A DNA stretch of 64,000 nt. Source: Nitrosophilus labii. GTDB lineage: Bacteria; Campylobacterota; Campylobacteria; Campylobacterales; Nitratiruptoraceae. Positions 23,184 through 35,680 of the stretch are shown here, in pieces. The notes under the pieces were generated by a model. That model ran no database searches and was not told where the DNA came from. It was given only the letters and a program-made list of their open reading frames with translations. How positions within the stretch are numbered: position 1 is the stretch's first letter; every line of letters starts with the position of its first letter. Location: assembly GCF_014466985.1 (NCBI RefSeq), contig NZ_AP022826.1:124001-188000 (forward strand), in the 5' to 3' direction. Both the position numbers and the translations under genes were made by a program.

Positions 23184-23690
23184 ATGATAAAAGAGTTTTG
23201 GGAAAAGTTTGTAGATGAGAAGATCATTCCTTATGTTTTTAAATGTTCTAAACATCCGATGAGATTTGTTGAGCTGTTAAAATCAAACAAAGCTTATATA
23301 GATGGGCTTGATCCTTCCATGACTATACCTGGATTTCGGTTGTCAACCATAAGACTCTATATAGTATATTTTATTTTGTGGAACTTGGTTATCATACCTG
23401 CTTCTTTGATATTTCACGCTTTTTTGGCAAAACTTGATTGTCATCTTTCAATAATCCTTGCAATTATATTTACGCTTATCTTTTTTGGTACTTTTCAGAT
23501 ATTTAAAGAGTGGCTTATACATAGAGTAGCTGAAAACATTATCAAAAAAGCGTGGCAAAATCATCTTCCACATTTTAATTACGAAAAATACAGATACAAA
23601 GTAGCCGAGATTTATGCGGAGGCTATGGATAAAGAGATACCAAAATTTGAAATAGAGAGATATATCATAGATAGGCTAGTGGAGTCTTAA
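23184..23690 (+). CDS. Hypothetical membrane protein
   Basis: 168 residues, family not recognised. Two adjacent hydrophobic segments (about 57-80 and 86-107: LYIVYFILWNLVIIPASLIF and IILAIIFTLIFFGTFQIF) are flanked by charged N- and C-terminal parts, suggesting a two-helix inner-membrane protein with cytoplasmic tails. It starts 1 bp after the patatin-like gene, which points to a shared transcript and perhaps a role at the membrane. Its end overlaps the convergent YhbP-like gene by 4 bp. Confidence 0.7.
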   Translation: MIKEFWEKFVDEKIIPYVFKCSKHPMRFVELLKSNKAYIDGLDPSMTIPGFRLSTIRLYIVYFILWNLVIIPASLIFHAFLAKLDCHLSIILAIIFTLIFFGTFQIFKEWLIHRVAENIIKKAWQNHLPHFNYEKYRYKVAEIYAEAMDKEIPKFEIERYIIDRLVES

Positions 23691-24097
23691 ACTCTTTGCC
23701 AGACTATTTTTTTCCCAAACCCCAAAAGATTGTCGGTAAGTTTCACAAAGTCGAGCTCTATCGACCAAAGAAGGGGTTTATGGTTTTTTGCAAAGGGAAA
23801 CTTTTCAAAATAGCTTCTTATTTCTTCAAATGTTAGGGAATTTTTAAGTCTGCCTGTAAACTGGATACCTTGAATTTTTCCTATATTTTTTGTTTCTTTC
23901 GATACCGTCCCTGCAATTTTAGGATTTGAGATAGCTTCTTTCATATGTTTTGTTTTTATATCCGAAGCAAATATTAAACTTCTGTTTTCTATGTTAAAAG
24001 CGTAAAAGCAGTTGGCACAGTAAGGCTCCCCCTTTCCACAAACCGCAAGTGTGAGTAGATGATGAGCTTTTATATACTTTTCGATTATTTTGTCCAT
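23687..24097 (-). CDS. YhbP-like protein of the pyridoxamine-5'-phosphate-oxidase fold
   Basis: 136 residues resembling the UPF0306/YhbP group of split-barrel flavin-binding proteins: HHLLTLAVCGKGEPYCANCF at the N-terminus, SDIKTKHMKEAISNPKIAGTV in the middle and IQGIQFTGRL. The family probably binds FMN; its reaction is unknown. It is 3 bp downstream of the YqaA-like gene on the same strand. Confidence 0.75.
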   Translation of the reverse strand: MDKIIEKYIKAHHLLTLAVCGKGEPYCANCFYAFNIENRSLIFASDIKTKHMKEAISNPKIAGTVSKETKNIGKIQGIQFTGRLKNSLTFEEIRSYFEKFPFAKNHKPLLWSIELDFVKLTDNLLGFGKKIVWQRV

Positions 24098-24100
24098 TTC

Positions 24101-24526
24101 TTATCCTGTAGCTATGTTGTATCCTTGCAAGACAAACAGATATCTTCCAAGTTTAGCTAAAAATACCAAAAACAGAAATTTTTTAAGATCATAATGCATA
24201 ACTCCCGCTATGAATGTGATAGGATCTCCGATAACCGGCGCCCAAGAGAGTAAAAGGGCAAAGGGTCCTAGTTTTTCAAAATATTTTTGAGTTTTTTCTA
24301 TCTCTTTTTGTTTTAGATATCTTTTTTTAATAAGATAGTCGGTCCCTTTTAAGCCTATAAAATAGTTAAGTAAAGAGCCCAAAGTGTTTCCTACAGATGC
24401 ATTGAGTAACAAAAAGAAAGGATTTAGTCCTTGATGAAGATAATAAATAAGCATCCCTTCACTATATATAGGCAAAAAAGTTGCCGCAGCAAAAGCGGAT
24501 AAGAAAAGTAAAAAATATCCAAGCAT
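24101..24526 (-). CDS. YqaA/DedA-like membrane protein
   Basis: 141 residues with several hydrophobic segments and the motifs of the small SNARE-associated/VTT family: FLPIYSEGMLIYYL, NTLGSLLNYFIG, and FALLLSWAPVIGDPITFIAGVM. Members are inner-membrane proteins, some linked to lipid flipping or transport; the role here is unknown. ATG 24526 is chosen over a TTG two codons upstream (24532); neither has a strong ribosome-binding site. Confidence 0.75.
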   Translation of the reverse strand: MLGYFLLFLSAFAAATFLPIYSEGMLIYYLHQGLNPFFLLLNASVGNTLGSLLNYFIGLKGTDYLIKKRYLKQKEIEKTQKYFEKLGPFALLLSWAPVIGDPITFIAGVMHYDLKKFLFLVFLAKLGRYLFVLQGYNIATG

Positions 24527-24571
24527 AGACAAAAGAGCCTTTGTTTTTCGGATATAATAACACAGCTATCA

Positions 24572-24600: not shown

Positions 24601-26169
24601 TCATAAGGCAAATTCTACATCAAAGTTTTTGCTCGCTAGATATTCGCCAAAGCTTTTAAAACCGCTTTTTTGGTAACTTAGTATAAGTTTTTCAATAAAG
24701 CCGGGTATCTCATCGTGAGTCAGCAAAATTCCTGTTCTTTTTGAAAAACGGCTTGATTTTCCTTCAAGTTTACCTCCTACCAAAAGCTCAAAACCTTTTA
24801 CACTTTTTCCATTTCGTTTAAACGTGGCCCCACTTAGACCTATATCTGCAATACAAGGATGAGCGCATGAATTTGGACAACCGTTTACACTTATATTGAC
24901 CGGCTCACCGAAAGCTGGAAATCTGTTTTCAAGATAAAGAGCGATTTTTTCGGCAAGGCTTTTTGTTTCGTTTATGGCAAATTTACAAAAATCGAGACCG
25001 GTACATGCTGTTGTCCTTGTTCTAAAAGCTGATGGATAAGGGTTGATTTTCATCTTTTCAAGCTCTTCACAAATTCTGTTTGTCTCCTCTTTTGGAACAT
25101 CCAAAATGATGAAATTCTGTTTTGTTGTAGTGCGAATTTCACTTATATCATATTTTTCAAGCAGCGTATATAGCTGCAATAGCCTGTCTCCTCCCATCTT
25201 TCCGCCGAAAAGTGCACATCCTATATGATTGGTGTTACTGTTTTTGGATGGAAAAATTCCGCAATGGTGTCTTATTTTGGCAGGTGAAACTTCAAAGAGT
25301 TCTCTCTCTTTTATTTTAATACCCGAGTTTTTTTCAAGAGTCTCTTTAAATTTCTGCACTCCCCATTTTTTTATAAGATGTCCAAGTCTTGCTTTATTTC
25401 TCTTTTCTCTATTTCCAAAGTCCCTAAATATCTCAACAGCTGCTTTTGCAAGAGGTACTATTTCATCCTTTTGTACATATCCCAAAAAGTTTGCAAAGCG
25501 TCTGTTGCTAGCAAGTCCCCCACCGGTAAAGAGAGCAAATTCAACCCCATTTTTTCTTTTTACAGCTACAAAACTCAAATCTTGTATCTCATAAGGCATA
25601 CAGTGTTGTGCACATCCGCTAACTCCTATTTTAAATTTTCTAGGAAGATTGCTAAAATCTTTGTTTTTGAAAAAAAGTGAATTTATCTCATCTACAATAT
25701 CACTTACGTCTGTAATCTCTTCTTTGGCCCTTCCATTAAGAGGGCATGTAACAGTATTTCTTACAACATCGCCTGCGGCCATGCATGTGCTAAGACCACT
25801 TTTTTGAAGTTTTTCAAAGATATCAGGAACATCTTTCATTTTTATCCAATGAAACTGTAAATCTTGTCTAGTTGTAAAATCTGCACTGTTTTTCGCATAC
25901 TTTACCGATATCTCTCCAAGTGTTTTGATTTGTTCTTTGTTTAAAACCCCTTTTTCTATCTTAACTCTGAGCATAAAATATTGTGTAGGATCCGATTCTG
26001 GTTGGAGTGTCCTATTTTGCGTATAAAGACCGTACCATTTGAGACGATCGATATCTTCAGGATCCATCGGGATATCTTCTTTTGCATATCTGTATATATC
26101 CTTCAATACATCAAGCCCGTCTTTTTGGCGTTTTAATCTTTCAATGCGTGTTGCTTTGCTCTCTTTCAT
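24601..26169 (-). CDS. sir: Ferredoxin-type sulfite (or nitrite) reductase
   Basis: 522 residues of the siroheme/[4Fe-4S] reductase family with two nitrite/sulfite reductase half-repeats. The cluster-siroheme ligands are C-x5-C near 388-394 (CTGLDFC) and C-x3-C near 429-433 (CPNSC). The sequence alone does not cleanly separate sulfite from nitrite reductase. Its place after cysH-cysD-cysN argues for six-electron reduction of sulfite to sulfide. The ATG at 26169 overlaps the cysN stop (ATGA) and is preceded by GGAGAAGA; a longer frame to 26199 is less likely. Confidence 0.88.
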   Translation of the reverse strand: MKESKATRIERLKRQKDGLDVLKDIYRYAKEDIPMDPEDIDRLKWYGLYTQNRTLQPESDPTQYFMLRVKIEKGVLNKEQIKTLGEISVKYAKNSADFTTRQDLQFHWIKMKDVPDIFEKLQKSGLSTCMAAGDVVRNTVTCPLNGRAKEEITDVSDIVDEINSLFFKNKDFSNLPRKFKIGVSGCAQHCMPYEIQDLSFVAVKRKNGVEFALFTGGGLASNRRFANFLGYVQKDEIVPLAKAAVEIFRDFGNREKRNKARLGHLIKKWGVQKFKETLEKNSGIKIKERELFEVSPAKIRHHCGIFPSKNSNTNHIGCALFGGKMGGDRLLQLYTLLEKYDISEIRTTTKQNFIILDVPKEETNRICEELEKMKINPYPSAFRTRTTACTGLDFCKFAINETKSLAEKIALYLENRFPAFGEPVNISVNGCPNSCAHPCIADIGLSGATFKRNGKSVKGFELLVGGKLEGKSSRFSKRTGILLTHDEIPGFIEKLILSYQKSGFKSFGEYLASKNFDVEFAL

Positions 26170-27620
26170 TTCTTCTCCTCTATTGATATACATCCCCATT
26201 CAGGGAAGTGTTTTCTGATGTAGCGATTTAGTTCTATCTCTGCTTCGGTGTAAACTCTTTTTTTCTTATCACTTTTTGTTGCATCTATGATCATACCTGC
26301 TGCAACGGTATGGTTTGTAATTTTATCTATAACAATAAAACTTCCGGTGCCTTTTATCTTGTTATAAGGATCACAAGCTATCTCTCTTGTTAGAGAAAGA
26401 CGGCATTTTCCTATCTCGTTCAGTTCAAGAGTATCTGTTTTTATTTCCTCCCAGCTGTTTACATCTTTTTTAAATATAATCTCTTCAAATATTACATTCA
26501 AAGATGTTGTAGCTCTTTTTATCTCATACTCTATTTCTAGTTCCAAAGGCTTTTCATCCATCCAAACTATCATAGCTACTATAGTGTCTGAGGTTGTCAA
26601 GCAATCTTTTGAATGTACTATCATATCTCCTCGGCTGATATCTATCTCATCTTCCAAGGTTAAAGTTACTGCCATAGGAGCAAACGCCTCTTGTATGCTG
26701 ACAAGCTTTGAATCACTGCCAATAGATGGGAGAATTATCTCTTTTATTTTGCTCTTTTTCCCAGAAGGTAAAACGGTTATTTCATCTTTCACTTTAACAC
26801 TTCCGCTTGCAATGGTTCCTGCAAATCCTCTAAAGTCAAGATTCGGTCTGTTTACATACTGAACAGGAAATCTAAAATCTTTTTGGTTTATATCTTTTGA
26901 AATTTCTATTGTGTCCAAATATTCCAAAAGGGCTTTCCCCTCATACCACTGTATATTTGTACTCTTTTGTACAACATTGTCTCCCTTTAAAGCGGATATG
27001 GGTATAAAGTCTATAGTATGTATACTATCTTTGAACTCTTTCAAACTTTTTGTTAACTTTTCATACATCTGCAAATAGTCTCTTTTTATATTTTCGTATA
27101 CATCTTTGCTGTAGCCGACTATATCCATCTTATTGATGGCAACAACTATATGCTTTATCCCGAGAAGAGAGACTATATATGAATGTCTTTTTGTTTGAGT
27201 TAGAACTCCTTTTCTTGCATCTATCAGTATCACAGCAAGGTTTGCAGTGCTTGCTCCTGTAACCATATTTCTTGTGTACTGTTCGTGTCCAGGAGTATCA
27301 GCTATGATATATTTTCTTCTGTCGGTTGCAAAAAATCTGTATGCAACATCAATTGTGATTCCTTGTTCTCTTTCGCTTTGAAGACCATCTACAAGAAGAG
27401 CAAAGTCTATCTCTTCGTTTGTCGTTCCGTATTTCTTACTCTCTCTTTTAACGACGCTTAATTGATCTTCCAGGACGGTCTTGCTGTCGTACAAAAGACG
27501 TCCTATAAGCGTACTCTTGCCGTCATCAACACTTCCGCATGTGATAAACCTAAGAAGCTCTTTGTTCTCGTGCTCTTTGAGATACTGCTCTATATTTGTT
27601 GCTACAAGATTTTGACCCAT
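26166..27620 (-). CDS. cysN: Sulfate adenylyltransferase, GTPase subunit
   Basis: 484 residues, EF-Tu-like. G1 is GSVDDGKS (29-36), G3 DTPGH (108-112) and G4 NKMD (163-166). CysN couples GTP hydrolysis to synthesis of APS from ATP and sulfate by CysD. It has no C-terminal APS kinase (cysC) fusion, which fits an APS-reducing pathway that needs no PAPS. It begins 1 bp after cysD ends and overlaps sir by 4 bp. Confidence 0.95.
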   Translation of the reverse strand: MGQNLVATNIEQYLKEHENKELLRFITCGSVDDGKSTLIGRLLYDSKTVLEDQLSVVKRESKKYGTTNEEIDFALLVDGLQSEREQGITIDVAYRFFATDRRKYIIADTPGHEQYTRNMVTGASTANLAVILIDARKGVLTQTKRHSYIVSLLGIKHIVVAINKMDIVGYSKDVYENIKRDYLQMYEKLTKSLKEFKDSIHTIDFIPISALKGDNVVQKSTNIQWYEGKALLEYLDTIEISKDINQKDFRFPVQYVNRPNLDFRGFAGTIASGSVKVKDEITVLPSGKKSKIKEIILPSIGSDSKLVSIQEAFAPMAVTLTLEDEIDISRGDMIVHSKDCLTTSDTIVAMIVWMDEKPLELEIEYEIKRATTSLNVIFEEIIFKKDVNSWEEIKTDTLELNEIGKCRLSLTREIACDPYNKIKGTGSFIVIDKITNHTVAAGMIIDATKSDKKKRVYTEAEIELNRYIRKHFPEWGCISIEEKK

Positions 27621-27621
27621 T

Positions 27622-28533
27622 TTAGAAATACCCCTCTATCTTTTTTTTCTCCATACTTCCTTCTTGGTCTTTGTCGATGATTCTTCCTTCTCTTTCACTA
27701 TTTCGAGACAGAAGCATCTCTTGTATGATCTCTGGAAGAGTTTCGGCGTTGGAACTTACCGCTCCTGTTAAAGGGTAGCATCCTAAAGTTCTAAATCTAA
27801 CTTTTTCTATTTTTGCTTTTTCTCTTAAGTGTTTCGGCATCCTTTCGTCATCTACCATTATCTTTGCTCCATCAATTTCGACTATAGGCCTCTTTTTTGC
27901 AAAGTAAAGAGGCACTATAGGAATATTTTCCAGATAGATATACTGCCAGATATCAAGTTCCGTCCAATTTGAGAGAGGAAATACTCTTACGCTCTCTCCT
28001 TTATTTATTTTTGTATTGTATATATTCCAAAGTTCTGGTCTTTGGTTTTTAGGGTCCCATCTGTGGAAGTAGTCCCTGAATGAAAAGATTCTCTCTTTTG
28101 CTCTACTTTTCTCTTCATCTCTTCTGGCTCCTCCGATTATAGCATCAAACTTCCCTTTGTTTAGCGCTTGTTTCAAAGCCTGGGTTTTCATAATGTCAGT
28201 ATGAAGTTTTGACCCATGGATAAACGGGTTTATATCCATTTTTATACCTTCCGGATTTGTATGGATTATAAGTTCTACTCCAAGCTCTTTGACTCTTTTG
28301 TCTCTAAACTCTATCATCTCTTTGAACTTCCACAATGTATCTACATGCAAAAGCGGAAAAGGAGGTTTTCCTGGATAGAAAGCCTTCATAGCAAGGTGAA
28401 GCATTACCGAGCTATCTTTTCCTATGCTGTACATCATCACTGGATTTTCGAACTGGGCAGCTACTTCTCTAAGGATATATATAGACTCTGCTTCTAACTG
28501 TTTTAAATGGGTCAATTGTTTTTTATCTATCAT
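27622..28533 (-). CDS. cysD: Sulfate adenylyltransferase, catalytic subunit
   Basis: 303 residues of the PP-loop (N-type ATP pyrophosphatase) family: [14 protein letters not shown] is the PP motif near the N-terminus, followed by [25 protein letters not shown] and [14 protein letters not shown]. It forms APS with CysN. The ATG at 28533 is chosen because AGAGGTGAAA precedes it and it begins 2 bp after the cysH stop; an open frame extends 20 codons upstream but lies within cysH. Confidence 0.95.
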
Positions 28534-28535
28534 TT

Positions 28536-29252
28536 TCACCTCTTTTTTATGTGTAGTCCGCACTCTTTGTGTTCCGGTTTTTCCCACCACCATCGTCCGC
28601 TTCTTATATCTTCACCCTCTTTTACTGCCCTTGTACAAGGCTCACATCCAATGCTTGGAAATCCTCTGTCATGAAGAGGATTGTATGGAATTTCATGTTT
28701 TTTTATATATTCCCATACCTGTTTGGTACTCCACTCAAATAGTGGATTTAGTTTTATTAATCCGAAAACGTCGTCATATTCAACAAGTTTTGCATCTTTT
28801 CTTGTTATCGATTGTTGGCGTCTAAGGCCAGTTATCCATATTTTTTTATTTTTAAGAGCTCTTCTTAATGGCTCTATTTTTCTTACTTCACAGCACCTTT
28901 TTCTATTTTCAATGCTTTCGTAAAATCCGTTGATGCCTTGTTCATATATGAGATTTTCCAAACTTTTGTAGTTAGGGACATACGCTCTTATTGTAATACC
29001 GTATTTTTTTTCGGTTTTTTCCCATGTTTTATATGTCTCTTCATGCAGTCTGCCGGTATCAAGCGTAAAGATCTCTATATTTGGATCAATATTTACCCCT
29101 ATATGGGTAAGCACCTGATCTTCTGCTCCGAAACTACTTGCAAGCGCAATATCTCCTTGATACTCTTTCAAAAAATATTCAAGGACCTTTTTGGGATTTT
29201 CTTTTACAAATATACGGTTATAGTTTTGAGCAATTTCCAAAAAAGATTTCAT
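28536..29252 (-). CDS. cysH: Adenylyl-sulfate (APS) reductase, [4Fe-4S] type
   Basis: 238 residues. Cluster ligands C120-C121 (RCCEVRK) and C203/C206 (GCEPCTRA) identify the iron-sulfur APS reductases rather than the cluster-free PAPS enzymes, and the catalytic cysteine C231 lies in ECGLH. A PP-loop-like SSFGAEDQV stands at 39-47. It reduces APS to sulfite with thioredoxin, which agrees with the absence of a cysC gene. It lies between the DUF2061 gene and cysD in one operon. Confidence 0.94.
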
Positions 29253-29265
29253 ACTTTATTACCTC

Positions 29266-29493
29266 CTATATCTGATACTCTGGCTCTTTTTTTATGCGTC
29301 CAAGCGGTATCTTATTCCATACTCTTTCGTGAAAATAGTAAAGGATCATTTTTGTTATAAGCTCTATTCCCCCTATAGAAGCAGCCATACCAAAACTCCC
29401 GGTTATAAAAAAGGAGATGGCTATAGTGTCTAAAGTACCTAATGCCCTCCATGATATAGTTTTAATGACGCTTCTGTAAGGCTTTTCGTGCAT
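29266..29493 (-). CDS. DUF2061 membrane protein
   Basis: 75 residues with two predicted membrane segments (about 19-33 and 37-53) and the DUF2061 pattern: KTISWRALGTLDT at the start, then a C-terminal YYFHERVWNKIPLGR. DUF2061 genes often sit in sulfur-assimilation or sulfate-activation operons; no function is established. It is the first gene of the DUF2061-cysH-cysD-cysN-sir transcription unit, 13 bp before cysH. Confidence 0.85.
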   Translation of the reverse strand: MHEKPYRSVIKTISWRALGTLDTIAISFFITGSFGMAASIGGIELITKMILYYFHERVWNKIPLGRIKKEPEYQI

Positions 29494-29504
29494 TTTTAAC
29501 TCTC

Positions 29505-29534
29505 CATATAGACTAAGTCTATCGAATTAGTCAA
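29505..29534 (-). promoter_or_regulatory. Promoter with 15-bp palindromic operator upstream of the cys operon
   Basis: On the minus strand TTGACT (29529-29534), 18 bases, TATATG (29505-29510) form a likely promoter 12 bases before the DUF2061 gene. A perfect palindrome ATAGACTAAGTCTAT (29508-29522) overlaps the -10 and spacer, where a bound repressor would block polymerase. The neighbouring rrf2-family regulator is the obvious candidate. Confidence 0.6.
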
Positions 29535-29562
29535 GATTGACCTCAAAAAAAATGTTTTTATT

Positions 29563-29588
29563 TTTGACGAGTTTTTCAACTCGTCAAA
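29563..29588. terminator. Hairpin at the end of the rrf2 gene
   Basis: TTTGACGAGTT (29563-29573) and AACTCGTCAAA (29578-29588) form an 11-bp perfect stem with a 4-base loop. The rrf2 stop codon (29584-29586) is in the stem. A T-rich run on the minus strand appears about 20 bases further, so termination is possible between metY-rrf2 and the cys operon. Confidence 0.6.
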
Positions 29589-30000
29589 TTGTGTAAAATA
29601 TTTGGTTTGAGACCTTTTGCTGATATAGTTTAAAATCATCAAGGGTTATATCGAAAATTTTTTCCAGTTTTTTTTGTGCTTCCTCGTAAAAAAGCTCCAA
29701 AACAGGATTGCCCGTACAGGTTTCGGTTATCTTTATGTTGCCTTCTAACGATCTCACAATATCCAAAACTTTGATATTGGAAGGGTGGGTTGATAGCATA
29801 TATCCTCCATAAGCTCCTCTTATACTTTTTACAAAGCCATCTTTTTTCAAAATATTCAAAAGCTGCTCAAGATAATTTTGAGGTATATTTGCTCTTGCTG
29901 CGATATCTTTTATTTTGACAGGCTTATTGAACTGATAATCTTTTGATAGTTCATACATTGCAACTAAACCATATGTTCCCTTCGAGGAGAGAAGTGTCAT
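29584..30000 (-). CDS. Rrf2-family transcriptional regulator (CymR-like)
   Basis: 138 residues. The winged HTH (about 1-80) reads LSSKGTYGLVAMYELS, IPQNYLEQLLNILKKDGFV and SIRGAYGGYML, a clear Rrf2 signature. Only one cysteine (C95 in TETCTGNP) lies where IscR has three, so it is unlikely to hold an iron-sulfur cluster the IscR way and is closer to CymR, which represses cysteine genes. It starts 1 bp after metY, pointing to co-transcription with a sulfhydrylase, and lies just upstream of the palindromic operator. Confidence 0.9.
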   Translation of the reverse strand: MTLLSSKGTYGLVAMYELSKDYQFNKPVKIKDIAARANIPQNYLEQLLNILKKDGFVKSIRGAYGGYMLSTHPSNIKVLDIVRSLEGNIKITETCTGNPVLELFYEEAQKKLEKIFDITLDDFKLYQQKVSNQIFYTI

Positions 30001-30001
30001 A

Positions 30002-31267
30002 TCAGCTCTCCATCGCTTGTTTTAGATCTTCAATCAAATCTTCATAATCTTCAAGACCAACACTTAGCCTTATTAGACCCGGAGTTACTCCTGTTTTTTC
30101 AAGTTCTTCCGGACTTAGTTGCTGATGAGTGGTGCTTGCTGGATGAGTTATAATAGATTTTGAATCACCTATATTAACAACTACACTGAAAATTTTTGTA
30201 TTGTTTAGAATCTTTTTAGCAAACTCAAAATCACCCACATCAAAACTCAAAAGTCCTGAAGCCAATCCATCTTTGAAATATTTCTGTGCTTTTTCATAGT
30301 TTACATCACTTTTTAGCCCCGGATAGTTCACTTTCAAAACTTTAGGATGTTTTTCTAGAAACTCAGCAATTTTAAGGGCATTTTTAGAGTGTTCTTTGAT
30401 CCTTACTGCTAATGTTTCCAGACCCTGTATATGTAGCCAAGAGTTAAAGGGTGCAGGAGCAGCGCCTATATCTCTAATAAGAGAGAGTCTCACTCTAAGT
30501 GTAAATAAAGCAAAAGGAAGATCTGCATAAACTAGACCATGATAACTCTCGTCCGGTTCGTTGAATTGAGGATATTTCTCATTGCCTATTAATTTTTGAT
30601 TTAGTTCTTTGTTTTCTACTATCAATCCCCCAATTGCAGTCCCTTGTCCGTTTATGTATTTACTAGCACTATGTACTACAACATCTACACCTTTTGTTAG
30701 AGGATTGAAAATGATAGGTGTTGCTACTGTGTTATCGCATATTGTTACAATATTGTGTTTGTTGGCTATTTCAACTATTTTTTCCACATCCGCTATGCTG
30801 ATGTGAGGGTTTGAAAGAGATTCGAAAAATATGGCTTTAGTTTTATCATCTATGAGTTCTTCTAGGTCTTGTACTGTAACGCTATCGAAAAGTCTAGCTT
30901 CTATACCGAATCTTTTTATAGTATGTGTTAGTAAAGTTGTTGCACCACCATATATCTTTTTTGCTACTATTATATTGTCTCCCGCTTCGGCAAGATTAGC
31001 TACAGCATAGAAGATGGCTGCTTGTCCACTAGATGTTGCAATAGCTGCAGCGCCTTTTTCCAATGCGGCTATTCTCTTTTCCAAAACTTCTGTTGTAGGG
31101 TTGTTTAGTCTTGTATAGATAGGTCCTAGCTCTTTTAGTGCAAACAGATTTGCCGCACGTTCTGCACTCTCAAAATCGTAAGCGGTGGTTTGATAGATAG
31201 GTACAGCCATAGTGTTAAAGCCATCTTTATTATATCCGTAATGTAGAGCAAGAGTCTGTTTCTTCAT
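30002..31267 (-). CDS. metY: O-acetylhomoserine sulfhydrylase (MetY-type PLP enzyme)
   Basis: 421 residues, cystathionine-synthase-like PLP family. PLP lysine K203 lies in HSASKYINGQGTAIGG. Other motifs are YTRLNNPTTEVLEKR and TSSGQAAIFYA, and the C-terminal LIRLSVGLED is typical. The length of about 420-430 and a long insertion near 215-260 match MetY rather than MetB/MetC. It combines sulfide with an O-acetylated homoserine (less likely serine), using the sulfide made by the adjacent sir operon. First gene after a strong promoter (31292-31320). Confidence 0.92.
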   Translation of the reverse strand: MKKQTLALHYGYNKDGFNTMAVPIYQTTAYDFESAERAANLFALKELGPIYTRLNNPTTEVLEKRIAALEKGAAAIATSSGQAAIFYAVANLAEAGDNIIVAKKIYGGATTLLTHTIKRFGIEARLFDSVTVQDLEELIDDKTKAIFFESLSNPHISIADVEKIVEIANKHNIVTICDNTVATPIIFNPLTKGVDVVVHSASKYINGQGTAIGGLIVENKELNQKLIGNEKYPQFNEPDESYHGLVYADLPFALFTLRVRLSLIRDIGAAPAPFNSWLHIQGLETLAVRIKEHSKNALKIAEFLEKHPKVLKVNYPGLKSDVNYEKAQKYFKDGLASGLLSFDVGDFEFAKKILNNTKIFSVVVNIGDSKSIITHPASTTHQQLSPEELEKTGVTPGLIRLSVGLEDYEDLIEDLKQAMES

Positions 31268-31291: not shown

Positions 31292-31320
31292 ATTATATGA
31301 AAAGAAAGAGATAAAGTCAA
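31292..31320 (-). promoter_or_regulatory. Promoter of metY-rrf2
   Basis: Minus-strand TTGACT (31315-31320), 17-base spacer, TATAAT (31292-31297), 25 bases before the metY ATG, with AAAGGA as ribosome-binding site. A near-consensus vegetative promoter. The 15-bp palindrome of the cys promoter is not repeated here. Confidence 0.8.
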
Positions 31321-31396
31321 GTAAATCAATAGAGATTATACAGAATGAGCAGAAAGATAAAAAAAATTTATTTTTGTTGGTTAGTAAGAGATTCTC

Positions 31397-31507: not shown

Positions 31508-32812
31508 TGTCCCATTTGTCAAGACAACTTTTTTAGCATTCATCTTTCAGCTTTTCAAGCTGCTTTTTCTTTTGATGTCTGATAGACATTCATCGGTCTG
31601 TTATAGTTTAAAGATGAATGCATTCGATTGAAATTGTAAAATTTGATGTAGTTTCGTATGCCTGTTCTGAGTTCCTTAACGTTGCTATATTCCCTGAGAT
31701 AGATCTCTTCATATTTGAGTGTTCTAAAGAAGCGCTCTATTGCAATGTTATCGATACTTCTTCCTTTAGAGTTCATAGAGATTGTGATGCCATACTTTTT
31801 TAAAAGTTTGGTATGATTATCACTTGTATATTGACTTCCTTAATCTGAATTGAAGATTTGGGGTACTCCATGTATATCGATAGCATCTTGAAGTGTCTGT
31901 GTCACTAATGATACATCTATAGTGTGTTGGAAAGCCTCCACGATAGCAAGGCTTTAGAGTGCCAATCGATAATGGCGCATAGATACATAAAGCCACCCTT
32001 GACTGGGATATAGGTAATATACCACTCCACACTCTATTTGGTCTATCCACAACTACTTGACCTTTATCGTTTTAAAGGCTTTCAAAGAGTAAGGATAGAT
32101 TGTGTGCTCTTTGGCTTTGGTGCTGGTTTGTTTCTTTCTTTTAGGATAAATTGCAGCAATTCCTAAAAGTTGCATCAATCTATGTACTTTATTATGACCT
32201 ATATGCCAACCTTCCTCTTTGAGCCTAGCGTGGATTCTACGATAGCCATAGGTTGCAACATCGGTATATATCTCATCGATACGGCGCATAATCTTCAAAT
32301 CGTATTCGCTTATTCCTTTTGGTTTATAGTAAAGTGTGGAGCGATTGAGACCCAAAAGTTCACATTGTCTCGTCAAAGAGATGGTTTTAAGCTTGGACTC
32401 GACGAGACTTTTCTTACTTGATAAGTCCAAGCTTTTTAGTTTTCCCACTGCCCAGTCTCTTTCTATTGTGGTCTTTCCTAAAGTTTTCGCTAAAACTTCA
32501 TTCTCAATTTCTAGCTCTTTTATCTTTTCTCTATACTCTTTTGTAGCCTCTGCGATATCGAATGCCAAAGAAGCGTTTTCTAAAAACTTCTTCTTCCATT
32601 GGTTGAGTGTTTGAACGCTGATACCATATTTACTTGCTATCTTTGCAGCAGGCTCCTCATCTTTTCATAGCTCCAATACTACTTTGGTCTTAAACTCTGC
32701 GCTATAGCTTTTTTTCTTTTTGCTCATCTTTAGCCCCTTTCTTTTTCCCTCTTATCATTTTAGCTAATTTGAAGCTCCTTATTAGATTTTGTTGTCTAAA
32801 ATTTTAGGGGCA
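31508..32812 (-). mobile_element. IS3-family element, degenerate
   Basis: 1305 bp. Ends begin TGTCCCATTTGTCAAGACAAC (31508) and, on the complement, TGCCCCTAAAATTTTAGACAA (32812), sharing TGYCCC and AGACAAC as expected for IS3-type termini (TG...CA). orfA and orfB are on the minus strand and both broken. No 3-bp target duplication is seen. Confidence 0.8.
31555..32727 (-). pseudogene. IS3-family transposase genes orfA and orfB, broken
   Basis: orfA starts at ATG 32727 (SKKKKSYSAEFKTKVVLEL) and is cut by a TGA stop after 17 codons. The rest (KDEEPAAKIASKYGISVQTL) is an intact HTH with a coiled-coil region. orfB continues with the IS3 leader (RQCELLGLNRSTLYY, YGYRRIHARLKEEGW), then loses frame near 32050. 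The frame is regained only for the C-terminus (31776-31555), with the catalytic-glutamate region NIAIERFFRTLKYEE. At least one stop and two shifts make it nonfunctional. Confidence 0.88.
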
Positions 32813-32861
32813 TTATAGCGAAGCTGTGAGATTTTATTTAGACTAACACAAGGAGGGTTTT

Positions 32862-33020
32862 ATGTATTATGTTGGCATTGATGTTTCAAGTAAAAAGCAT
32901 TATGTTTGTATATTGGATAAGAATAAAGAGTTGATTATAAAACCTTTTAGTATCGCTTCTGATATACAAGGTTTAATGTTATTAAGTAAAAATAAAGTCT
33001 ATTATTTTGGATAAGAGTAA
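32862..33020 (+). pseudogene. IS110-family transposase, N-terminal remnant
   Basis: ATG 32862 after AGGAGG opens a 50-codon frame, YYVGIDVSSKKHYVCILDKN, the first DEDD aspartate segment of IS110 transposases, then a stop at 33012. The sequence resumes on the far side of the IS256-type element at 34416-34478, with a frame encoding LESTGIYSENLYEF, another IS110-specific stretch. There it is cut by the IS1380-like element at 34479. The 3' part is absent. Confidence 0.8.
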
Positions 33021-34415
33021 GATAGTGTACACTAAAGTTCGCAATTTCACTTGAAGACTCTTTTTTAGATTTTGAAATCTTCAAAAGAGTTGGATAGACT
33101 TCCCAGTGAGGAATAAAGCAAACAGGAGGAAGCCTATCCATGAGGAATAATAGCAAAAAAATAGATGAAACAAAAATATTCAAAGAGATAATGACACAGT
33201 TTGTAGTTGATGAAGATCCACTTTTATCAATGATGAAATGGATGATGGAACAGTTGATGAAGATAGAGTCCGAGATGAAAGTTGGAGCTAAAAAAGGTGA
33301 GCATAATAGTGAGAGAAAAAGCTATTTCAGCGGTTATCGTCCAAGAAGATTCGATACAAGACTAGGCACTGTATATCTGATGGTTCCAAAGATCAGAAAA
33401 GGAGGCTATATTCCATTTTTCATAACAGAGAGAAAAAGGAGCGAACAGGCTTTAATTGCAATGGTACAAGAGGCATACGTTAATGGAGTATCCACAAGAA
33501 AGATAGAGCGTTTAGCCAAAGAGTTGGGGATAGAAAATATTAGTGCTTCGCAAGTATCTCAAATCAATAAAGGGCTAGATGAACAAGTAAAAGAGTTTCG
33601 AAACAGACCGCTGCAAAAAGAGTATCCATTCGTTTGGGTTGATGCTTTGTATGAGAAAGTGAGAAACTATGAAGGAAGAGTGGTATCTACCGCTATTATG
33701 ATAGCTTATGGTGTGACATTGGAAGGAAAAAGAGAAGTATTGGCGATCGAGCCTTTTGTCAATGAAAGCGTAGAGAGCTGGAAGAGTTTTTTTGATAAAC
33801 TCAAACAAAGAGGCATAGAAAAGATTGCCCTTCTTGTCAGTGATGCACATTTAGGGATTCAAAAGGCTTTCAAAGAGAGTTTTATTGGCGCATCATGGCA
33901 ACGGTGTAAAGTCCATTTTATGCGTAATATCCTGGCTCATGTTCCACCTAAAGCAAAAGAGAAATTTGCAGCCAAACTCAAACAAATCTGGCTGCAAAAC
34001 AGCAAAAAGGAAGCTTATCTTATAGCCCAAGCTATTATCGATGAATATGGCAAAAAATTCCCTGAAGCTACCCAAGTGCTTCAAAATGGATTGGAAGACT
34101 CTTTGCAGTTTTATCACTTCCCGCAAATTGATAAAAGGAGGATAAGTTCGACAAATGTGTTAGAAAGAATCAACAAGGAGATTAGAAGACGCTCTAAAGT
34201 AGTATCTGTTTTTCCATCAAGAGAGTCCTATATTAGACTCATTACCACATACTTGATGGAGTACACTGAAGACTGGGAGATTGAGAGAAGCTATATTCAT
34301 CCACAAAAGCTTCAAGAGGTGATGGAAATCTATGAGGTGCAGCTTAAAGCTGCTTGATATCCAATGAAATACAACTTGCTGGAAAGTAAAATTGCGAACA
34401 AAACTTGACAGTATC
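33021..34415 (+). mobile_element. IS256-type element 3, intact (1395 bp)
   Basis: Terminal inverted repeats GATAGTGTACACTAAAGTTC and (complement of right end) GATACTGTCAAGTTTTGTTC both continue with GCAATTT. The element is flanked by the exact 8-bp duplication AAGAGTAA (33013-33020 and 34416-34423) and lies inside an IS110 remnant. The transposase gene is complete, so this is the only apparently autonomous insertion sequence in the window. Confidence 0.93.
33140..34357 (+). CDS. IS256-family transposase, complete
   Basis: 405-residue DDE transposase of the Mutator-like IS256 family. The catalytic residues are D168 (FVWVDALYEK), D235 (LLVSDAHLG) and E342 (NVLERINKEIRRR), with the helical insertion carrying the C/H motif (WQRCKVHFMRN, C256 and H259) between the second D and the E. 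Family length is about 390-410. There are no frameshifts or stops. It differs from the two other IS256-type transposases in the window and is probably still active. Confidence 0.93.
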   Translation: MRNNSKKIDETKIFKEIMTQFVVDEDPLLSMMKWMMEQLMKIESEMKVGAKKGEHNSERKSYFSGYRPRRFDTRLGTVYLMVPKIRKGGYIPFFITERKRSEQALIAMVQEAYVNGVSTRKIERLAKELGIENISASQVSQINKGLDEQVKEFRNRPLQKEYPFVWVDALYEKVRNYEGRVVSTAIMIAYGVTLEGKREVLAIEPFVNESVESWKSFFDKLKQRGIEKIALLVSDAHLGIQKAFKESFIGASWQRCKVHFMRNILAHVPPKAKEKFAAKLKQIWLQNSKKEAYLIAQAIIDEYGKKFPEATQVLQNGLEDSLQFYHFPQIDKRRISSTNVLERINKEIRRRSKVVSVFPSRESYIRLITTYLMEYTEDWEIERSYIHPQKLQEVMEIYEVQLKAA

Positions 34416-34478
34416 AAGAGTAACTTTTTAATTGGTTAGAATCTACTGGTATTTACAGCGAAAATCTTTATGAGTTTT
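34416..34478 (+). pseudogene. IS110-family transposase, second piece
   Basis: Continuation of the IS110 remnant after the IS256-type insertion. The frame reads LESTGIYSENLYEF, an IS110-family stretch downstream of the first aspartate. It connects to the upstream piece through the AAGAGTAA duplication, with a one-base shift in the joined reading frame. It ends at the IS1380-like left terminal repeat. Confidence 0.7.
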
Positions 34479-35680
34479 AAACCCAGATTTTGCAATAGAG
34501 TTCTTCTTGAATAAGAAAATTTAATGATATTATTTTGAAGTTTATCTTTTTTCTCAACTAAAAAGCGATAAAAGTTATCCAAATCCACCAATAGGAAGAG
34601 ATAGATTCTTGTTTTTTTCAAAAAGAGAGTTCATCCAAGCTCTTCTTTTTTTGGCTAGAGCCATTTTGAGCACTTTTTGATTGGAGTAGTGATTAGTAAT
34701 ATAACTTCCTATTGCAAAGCAATAGGCTCTGATAGTTGTGAAAGACATTGATTTGATTGTAAAAGAGAGTGTTTAAAAAGAGCTAGGATATTGTACGCCA
34801 TCATAATGAATCGAAAGGAAGCTTCCGTAGCGAAAAAGCCTTTGAGTACAAAACTATCTATGGCAAAATCATATTTGAGCTCTTTGATTTGGTTTTCAGC
34901 ATCAGCTCTTTGATTGTAGAGTCTATAGATCTGATCTGCTGGTAAAGAAAGATTGGTCACATAGGCGCTATATCTATACAGCGGTTCATCAAAAAGAGTT
35001 TTACCTGTCGCTTTTGGATAGTTTTCGACTCTTTTTCGCACAATAACATAGCGTCTAGGATAGGGACTATTTGGATGTTTGAGATACAATATGGCTGTAT
35101 CGATCCCTTTTGTTATCGATATCCATTGAGTTATTTTACCTATCTCGTATTGGATATTTGTATAGAACTTTACCGCTATGATGTAGTTTAGCTCTTTGTT
35201 CTCTAGCCATTTGAGTAGTTCATTGGCATAAAAACCGCTATCGGCTCTGACTAAACCTATAGGATGATCTTGCAAAACTTTCTCGAATGTCTCTTGTAAA
35301 AAGGCTTTGTAACTGCTAAGACTTACGCTATTACCGCTTCTTAGCCAAGCGTTCTACCATTTTCGTCTGTTCTATAAAGACTATGAGAGGATGATGAGAA
35401 GGTCTGCCAGGCTTTTTAGGATTATAGCCAACTTTCGCTCCCTCTTGATTGCCATATCTTGTTATAACTGTAGAATCCAAATCTATCGTCAAACTATCTA
35501 CATCTATCCTTTACGATTCATAAAATCTTTTAATATTTTCATCCCTCCAAATGGCGTAATATTCTTGTCTATATACCCAATCTTCAATTCACCCATTTGG
35601 TTAGTCCCTCTTCCCTTTAGTTTTTCCGCTTGTATGGTAGGTTTAATATTTTATCATTATCTAATGAAAAATTTGGGTTT
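34479..35680 (-). mobile_element. IS1380-like element, degenerate (about 1.2 kb)
   Basis: Terminal inverted repeats AAACCCAGATTTTGCAATAG (34479) and, on the complement, AAACCCAAATTTTTCATTAG (35680). This is the parent-type sequence of the deleted copy at 17122-18783. Its transposase has several frameshifts. No clear short target duplication is visible. It truncates the IS110 remnant on one side and abuts an IS481-like remnant on the other. Confidence 0.8.
34709..35596 (-). pseudogene. IS1380-family transposase, frameshifted
   Basis: Read from ATG 35596: GELKIGYIDKNITPFGGMKI up to DRKG and a stop. It resumes as DSLTIDLDSTVITRYGNQEG (catalytic aspartate region) and RPSHHPLIVFI, shifts near 35355, then continues in the long frame 35275-34709 (VRADSGFYANELLKWL, NQRADAENQIKELKYDF with the catalytic glutamate). 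A further shift near 34709 cuts off a C-terminal tail still visible to about 34570 (LAKKRRAWMNSLFEK). Not functional. Confidence 0.85.

Follow-up and report, generated by a model that had tools for sequence, protein, structure and literature searches.

A candidate operator shared by the metY-rrf2 and cys promoters of Nitrosophilus labii points to a CymR-like regulator of sulfur assimilation in Campylobacterales

We describe a candidate operator that is common to two promoters of Nitrosophilus labii, those of metY-rrf2 and of the DUF2061-cysH-cysD-cysN-sir operon, within a stretch of 64,000 nucleotides (contig NZ_AP022826.1, positions 124,001 to 188,000; hereafter the window). An Rrf2/CymR-like regulator very probably controls the DUF2061-cys promoter. 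We favor, and hold to be probable, the explanation that Rrf2 represses sulfur assimilation in the manner of CymR, acting with CysK at both promoters. Sequence comparison and modeling argue for a common site that is linked to sulfur genes throughout the order, and for the fold of the regulator and a near-invariant C-terminal tail; we infer DNA binding by Rrf2, repression as its sign, a complex with CysK and a signal carried by O-acetylserine.

In the proposed mechanism, an Rrf2 dimer would bind an imperfectly palindromic site of ~22-28 bp over the -35 of the two promoters. The site at metY-rrf2 would provide autoregulation, and the DUF2061-cysH-cysD-cysN-sir operon would be the second target; metY, cysH, cysD, cysN and sir serve cysteine and homocysteine synthesis from sulfate. 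Binding should repress because both sites cover the -35, and Rrf2 would thus block RNA polymerase at both promoters when cysteine is sufficient. Most likely, the C-terminal Tyr-x-Ile tail of Rrf2 would insert into the CysK (cysteine synthase) active site, making this enzyme a co-repressor and a sensor of the cysteine-replete state. A rise in O-acetylserine, the sign that sulfide or cysteine runs short, would expel the tail and relieve repression.

Background

What is said here of published work rests on the accessible portions of the papers cited. CymR is reported to function as a complex with CysK (PMC2869319, PMC4961446, PMC9338935). Partners of CysK are said usually to carry a C-terminal Ile (PMC4961446); CymR is named among the proteins with a C-terminal Ile motif, and O-acetylserine is reported to compete with CysE for its site on CysK (PMC12895370). 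In the openly available literature searched, no described regulator of sulfate assimilation in Campylobacterales came up; an earlier prediction in subscription journals or regulon databases is possible. In their accessible text, a C. jejuni fitness screen includes one putative Rrf2-family gene, the role of which is not given (PMC5438104), the Nautilia profundicola genome paper describes a species without sulfate assimilation (PMC2628731), and a Nitratiruptor metal-stress study lists metY-type genes with no mention of Rrf2 (PMC10092412).

Results

The locus and its promoters

The features of the locus are collected in Table 1. The listed cysD ORF overlaps cysH, so the true cysD start is probably internal. 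The metY stop lies 1 base upstream of rrf2. The preliminary description of a CymR-like rrf2 gene that neighbors the cys genes and forms one operon with metY holds. The DUF2061-cys promoter was absent from the output of the consensus promoter scan. Downstream of rrf2, the T run of the stem-loop starts 10 nt further on, so the structure is not a textbook terminator; since this strong stem-loop was not scored as a terminator by the terminator scan, read-through from metY into the cys operon may occur.

Table 1. Positions of genes, promoter elements and candidate operators in the window
Feature	Position	Strand	Basis or remark
sir, sulfite/nitrite reductase family	24601..26199	-	PF01077, PF03460
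cysN	26166..27620	-	TIGR02034, 593.7 bits
cysD	27622..28593	-	TIGR02039; listed ORF overlaps cysH
cysH-type APS/PAPS reductase	28536..29252	-	TIGR02055, 266.4 bits
DUF2061 (small membrane protein; opens the cys operon)	29266..29493	-	PF09834
DUF2061-cys -10 TCTATA (tentative)	29507-29512	-	16-nt spacer; comparison with relatives
Dyad core GACTAAGTCTATCGAATTAGTC of the candidate cys operator	29511-29532		9/11 pairs; 5-8/11 in eight relatives
Conserved candidate operator of the cys operon	29512..29539	+	28-bp register; over -35 and spacer
DUF2061-cys -35 TTGACT	29529..29534	-	sequence and relatives' promoters
11-bp stem-loop after rrf2	29563..29588	-	-14.7 kcal/mol, z -4.4
rrf2, CymR-like regulator, 138 aa	29584..30000	-	PF02082, 98.5 bits; C-terminus ..QIFYTI
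metY, O-acetylhomoserine sulfhydrylase	30002..31267	-	TIGR01326, 574.9 bits
metY promoter TTGACT-17-TATAAT	31292..31320	-	consensus scan, 11/12 matches
Conserved candidate operator of the metY-rrf2 promoter	31312..31339	-	over its -35; R1 22.8 bits, E 2.4e-4

Several neighboring features were recorded. Next after sir, in the same orientation, come genes for a VTT-domain membrane protein (24101-24532) and a weak PNPOx-like protein (23687-24097), which may be part of the cys operon. Just upstream of metY lies a cluster of transposase-like ORFs (31555-35500), several of them apparently broken, with a long ORF of 405 aa (33140-34357); these families were judged by eye. In relatives (L035, L038), cysK stands between rrf2 and DUF2061; it is missing from this place in the N. 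labii genome and in genomes G148 and G137. The N. labii cysK lies elsewhere (genome C1:271031) and is 65% identical to that of L038.

The regulator and its C-terminal tail

The rrf2 product belongs to the Rrf2 superfamily (PF02082, cut-off of 30 bits). The best curated model for it was NCBIfam CymR (NF047409), at 103.9 bits well short of the cut-off of 195. The score with NCBIfam IscR was 76.5 bits (cut-off 207.55); the NCBIfam cut-offs for NsrR and RirA were likewise missed. An AlphaFold model had a mean pLDDT of 89.7, lowest at the last residues (68). Its top solved fold, the best of 38 matches at E<=0.001, was B. subtilis CymR (2y75; TM 0.81 by query and 0.88 by target), and IscR folds were among the matches too. 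The five solved CymR/IscR chains formed a branch of their own (93/86) in a tree with rough bootstrap values and 19 of its 43 inner branches open, and this tree does not join the present Rrf2 group to CymR.

The product holds one cysteine, as had been described, and the proposal that it senses by means other than an Fe-S cluster is in line with the orthologues, 0/70 of which carry the Fe-S Cys triad. Sensing had been ascribed to a small molecule or a partner protein. A partner protein, by our reading CysK, is indeed probable; the single cysteine on which that argument drew is not a conserved feature (31/70 orthologues have none) and is therefore an unlikely sensor.

The C-terminus is conserved. 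An Ile ends the protein in 69/70 order loci and 79/80 named loci (overlapping sets); position -3 is always Tyr or Phe, and the residues preceding it vary. L074 and L276 are the two loci that differ, with FGL as their last residues. At L276, the metY operator is also weak (9.5 bits), as if partner binding and the site had decayed together. In gene order, metY stands directly before rrf2 in 71/80 named loci and cysK directly after it in 67/80, although in N. labii itself cysK is not adjacent. As a control, 20 regions with Rrf2 paralogues were taken, of which five gave no match; among the remaining 15 paralogues, a terminal Ile was present in six (as part of GLGI in five), so the C-terminal Ile alone is not diagnostic. 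The GLGI-ending Fe-S-type paralogues come from four Arcobacter-like genomes of family f9 and one of f20 (L308, L309, L310, L318, L319), and their ends are reminiscent of CysK-binding tails.

None of 51 CysE proteins examined has a C-terminal Ile, so the usual CysE anchor for CysK is missing. Because 22 of these 51 come from genomes without an Rrf2 orthologue, this absence is not specific to the Rrf2 system. The N. labii CysK keeps the PTSGNTG and NQF stretches, which we assume to hold the peptide-contact residues listed in the accessible part of PMC12895370. The case for CysK as partner is circumstantial: the Ile tail is a signature of a CysK-binding regulator, not proof of one.

Part of this evidence also suits a different account, in which Rrf2 represses at the common site and senses thiol oxidation, a small molecule or another partner, the Ile being due to dimer packing or chance. 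The Ile-ending Fe-S-type paralogues fit it, as do a cysK unlinked to rrf2 in the genus of N. labii and CysE proteins that lack the Ile even where the orthologue is absent; moreover, the S. aureus CymR is described, in the accessible part of PMC9338935, as an oxidation sensor. Chance or packing would sit poorly, however, with an Ile and an aromatic residue at -3 retained while the preceding residues vary, with cysK as the next gene in most named loci, and with a model confidence that falls at the very end of the chain, as for a free tail; the cysteine-free orthologues speak against thiol oxidation. We consider this account unlikely, though it deserves to be taken seriously.

The conserved operator in the clade and in other genera

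In the clade of N. labii, a stretch, TCTTGASTAWWTCRATAGANWT, that overlaps the 15-bp palindrome described below is common to 9/9 cys promoters (that of N. labii included) and lies over the -35 and spacer. The best dyad of the clade is centered at 29521/29522, with a mean of 8.22 of 13 pairs (z 3.9) over nine promoters, L068 being counted and L038 left out. The position of the center differs by method, since palindromic expectation maximization favors odd widths with one center and per-clade dyad counts favor others. Read on the opposite strand, the cys element resembles the stretch at the -35 of metY-rrf2. A clade cys model trained on sites from seven genomes (three clusters at 80%; N. labii and its nearest genome left out) was run over all window positions on both strands. 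It ranked the N. labii cys site first (34.8 bits) and the N. labii metY promoter second (17.8, the next match scoring 13.9), and it hit the expected register in 7/9 clade metY promoters (not L035 or L041).

Distant metY promoters, from genomes including Sulfurospirillum- and Arcobacter-like ones, share TykATnAAnTTACTTGACATTA. In other genera, where the DUF2061-cysH operon is remote from rrf2, the metY-type element is present in most promoters of this operon. To compare the two promoter types, 35 distant metY sites (11 clusters; sites L100 and L074 were dropped from the model sets) were made into a model. Of 18 regions upstream of distant DUF2061 genes, 15 had a match to it at E<=0.002 per region, L145, L157 and L158 being the misses; the regions were hand-picked after a first inspection, with L148 left out and L158, which has cysK upstream, left in. 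On the nine cys promoters of the N. labii clade, the same model was weak (E in region 0.002-0.29; 0.07 for N. labii), and its best match fell in another register in four of them, N. labii included.

Expectation maximization on both promoter sets (metY and DUF2061) converged on one motif. Its palindromic form, run on 45 promoters, gave log-likelihoods of 243-389 at widths 21-32, and three shuffled promoter sets gave 87-92 at widths 26 and 27. Among the metY promoters in named loci, 66/68 exceeded the 99% background score, as did 56/58 of those without a verbatim training site.

The predicted regulon

A sequence-only profile, R1, was made of 30 sites out of 33 non-redundant ones (L066, L067 and L078 were left out). 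In the N. labii genome, its top two matches were the metY site (22.8 bits) and the cys promoter (14.3 bits, E 0.134; genome C1:153513-153538, window 29513-29538), and the third reached 12.3 bits (E 0.586). Since both top matches belong to the training set, this ranking shows specificity, not discovery. No site was found before the N. labii cysK, either by eye (L123) or among the 10 R1 matches in this genome.

The profile was then searched against 199 genomes of the order, and 29 matches were given as loci L177-L205. These lie before or by metY (12), DUF4395-like genes (nine), cysK (two) and DUF2061 (two), and the rest by a cysD-like gene, an ABC permease (~280 bp away), a FadL-like gene and an unidentified one. 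The DUF4395-like calls were made by Pfam for L180 and L183, and for the others by the same N-terminal CPIS motif. DUF4395-like membrane proteins with an operator before them (L180-L184, L186, L196, L199, L200, L219, L221) occur in many genomes, some next to rrf2 and some elsewhere.

Genus g28 (family f15) contributed no training site, one other f15 genus having given one. Its R1 matches precede metY and cysD-, cysN- and ThiS-like genes; others stand before the genes of an ABC transporter (solute-binding protein, permease and ATPase), of a luciferase-like monooxygenase and of an NMT1-type binding protein. A further f15 genome, G145, has matches near genes for a permease and an NMT1-type binding protein. 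Where we call matched genes sulfate, ssuA, ssuC or ssuD, this is our reading of their Pfam domains. Other matches have no clear sulfur link, namely those by PhoH, a Peripla_BP_6 protein, a molybdopterin oxidoreductase and, at L218, L220 and L223, proteins without a Pfam match.

An R1 match at E<=0.01 was present in 61/89 genomes with an Rrf2 orthologue (E<=2e-17) versus 7/110 without, and thus missing from 28/89 orthologue-bearing genomes. With the 26 training genomes excluded, the counts were 39/64 versus 7/109; both comparisons are inflated by shared ancestry, and near relatives of the training genomes remain in the second. Together, the matches suggest that the element is tied to sulfur genes across the order.

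The element could conceivably be a mere extended -35 feature, or the site of another regulator, with Rrf2 acting elsewhere. TTGAC stands at the -35 inside the element in most metY promoters, and a conserved -35 would by itself supply part of the information. Yet in the clade, the cys element aligns with its metY counterpart in the orientation opposite to that of the promoter, which a promoter element would not do; the matches cluster at sulfur genes and co-occur with the orthologue; and the site is present in the operon of the regulator itself. This makes such an explanation decidedly improbable.

The 15-bp palindrome

A palindromic operator had previously been proposed in the DUF2061-cysH-cysD-cysN-sir promoter, and the palindrome is indeed there: ATAGACTAAGTCTAT spans 29508-29522 of the 90-bp gap between rrf2 and DUF2061 and has a single exact copy in the window. 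The pattern ATAGACTNAGTCTAT occurs at one place with 0 mismatches in the 2.09-Mb genome. Odd palindromes with perfect 7-bp arms number nine in the window versus about 7.7 expected, although when the 90-bp gap was shuffled 5000 times, only 75 of the resulting sequences contained one. By itself, a perfect 7-bp-arm palindrome is no more than chance in the window.

The preliminary description called for a search of relatives for the palindrome before cys genes. It is kept in 0/8 related DUF2061 promoters, which differ from it by 3, 3, 5, 6, 7, 4, 4 and 5 mismatches, so that the exact palindrome is private to this genome. We therefore do not retain ATAGACTAAGTCTAT as the operator, the conserved site being ~28 bp long and offset from it (the palindrome is centered at 29515). 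The overlap with the -10 and spacer holds for the palindrome, which reaches into the tentative -10; the conserved site covers the -35 and spacer. By this comparison, ATAGACTAAGTCTAT is one half of the conserved candidate operator, running on into the -10 region. That the palindrome alone is the operator, as its perfection in this genome and its place inside the promoter might suggest, is very improbable, given its loss in all eight relatives, the drop of dyad pairing at its center to 2-5/7 pairs there, and the lack of a second copy within 3 mismatches in the window, hence of any before metY.

A loose genome search with the 15-bp palindrome at <=3 mismatches gave 191 forward matches against 165 for a control pattern and thus no regulon. 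A hand-made 22-bp pattern gave 68 matches against 79 for its control; mismatch counting was too blunt, and a profile was used instead.

Discussion

A CymR-type regulator that works with CysK is already known; the system predicted here would be a distant offshoot of this kind, found in another phylum and having an operator and a gene array of its own. It resembles CymR of B. subtilis and S. aureus in the Rrf2 fold, the lack of Fe-S ligands and the C-terminal Ile motif and, going by the predicted operators, would also be tied to cysteine and methionine supply genes. In B. subtilis, a canonical CysE-CysK complex is reported to be absent or non-functional (accessible part of PMC12895370), and here CysE is without the required Ile. 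Unlike CymR, the regulator shows 40% identity in the structural alignment and scores below the equivalog cut-off, it is encoded in a metY-rrf2-cysK array, and its operator was defined independently of the B. subtilis motif. With the IscR/NsrR/RirA branch it has the DNA-binding domain PF02082 in common but differs in the missing Cys triad, the missed cut-offs and the sulfur-supply context. An Ile tail held by the active site of CysK, as we propose it, is also the arrangement of the CysE-CysK and CdiA-CT/CysK complexes, as far as these are described in the accessible sources, except that here the Ile would be carried by a transcription factor and by none of the CysE proteins examined.

We tentatively extend this to a broader scenario, which is possible but which we hold with distinctly less assurance than the reading of the N. 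labii locus. In much of Campylobacterales, the CysK-anchoring Ile may be missing from CysE and carried instead by an Rrf2 repressor cotranscribed with metY and often with cysK. CysK would then be a widespread cysteine sensor, and a CymR-CysK-like system would exist outside Firmicutes, by descent or convergence.

Conclusions

If this broader scenario is correct, the CysK-Rrf2 pair has an operator code of its own, which would reach sulfate and sulfonate uptake, DUF2061 and DUF4395. The proposed system offers a concrete and testable model for the control of sulfate assimilation in Campylobacterota, among them vent, sulfur-cycling and host-associated species. The idea of an enzyme as co-repressor, as with CysK and CymR, would be extended to another phylum, and two uncharacterized membrane families, DUF2061 and DUF4395, would find their place in a sulfur regulon.
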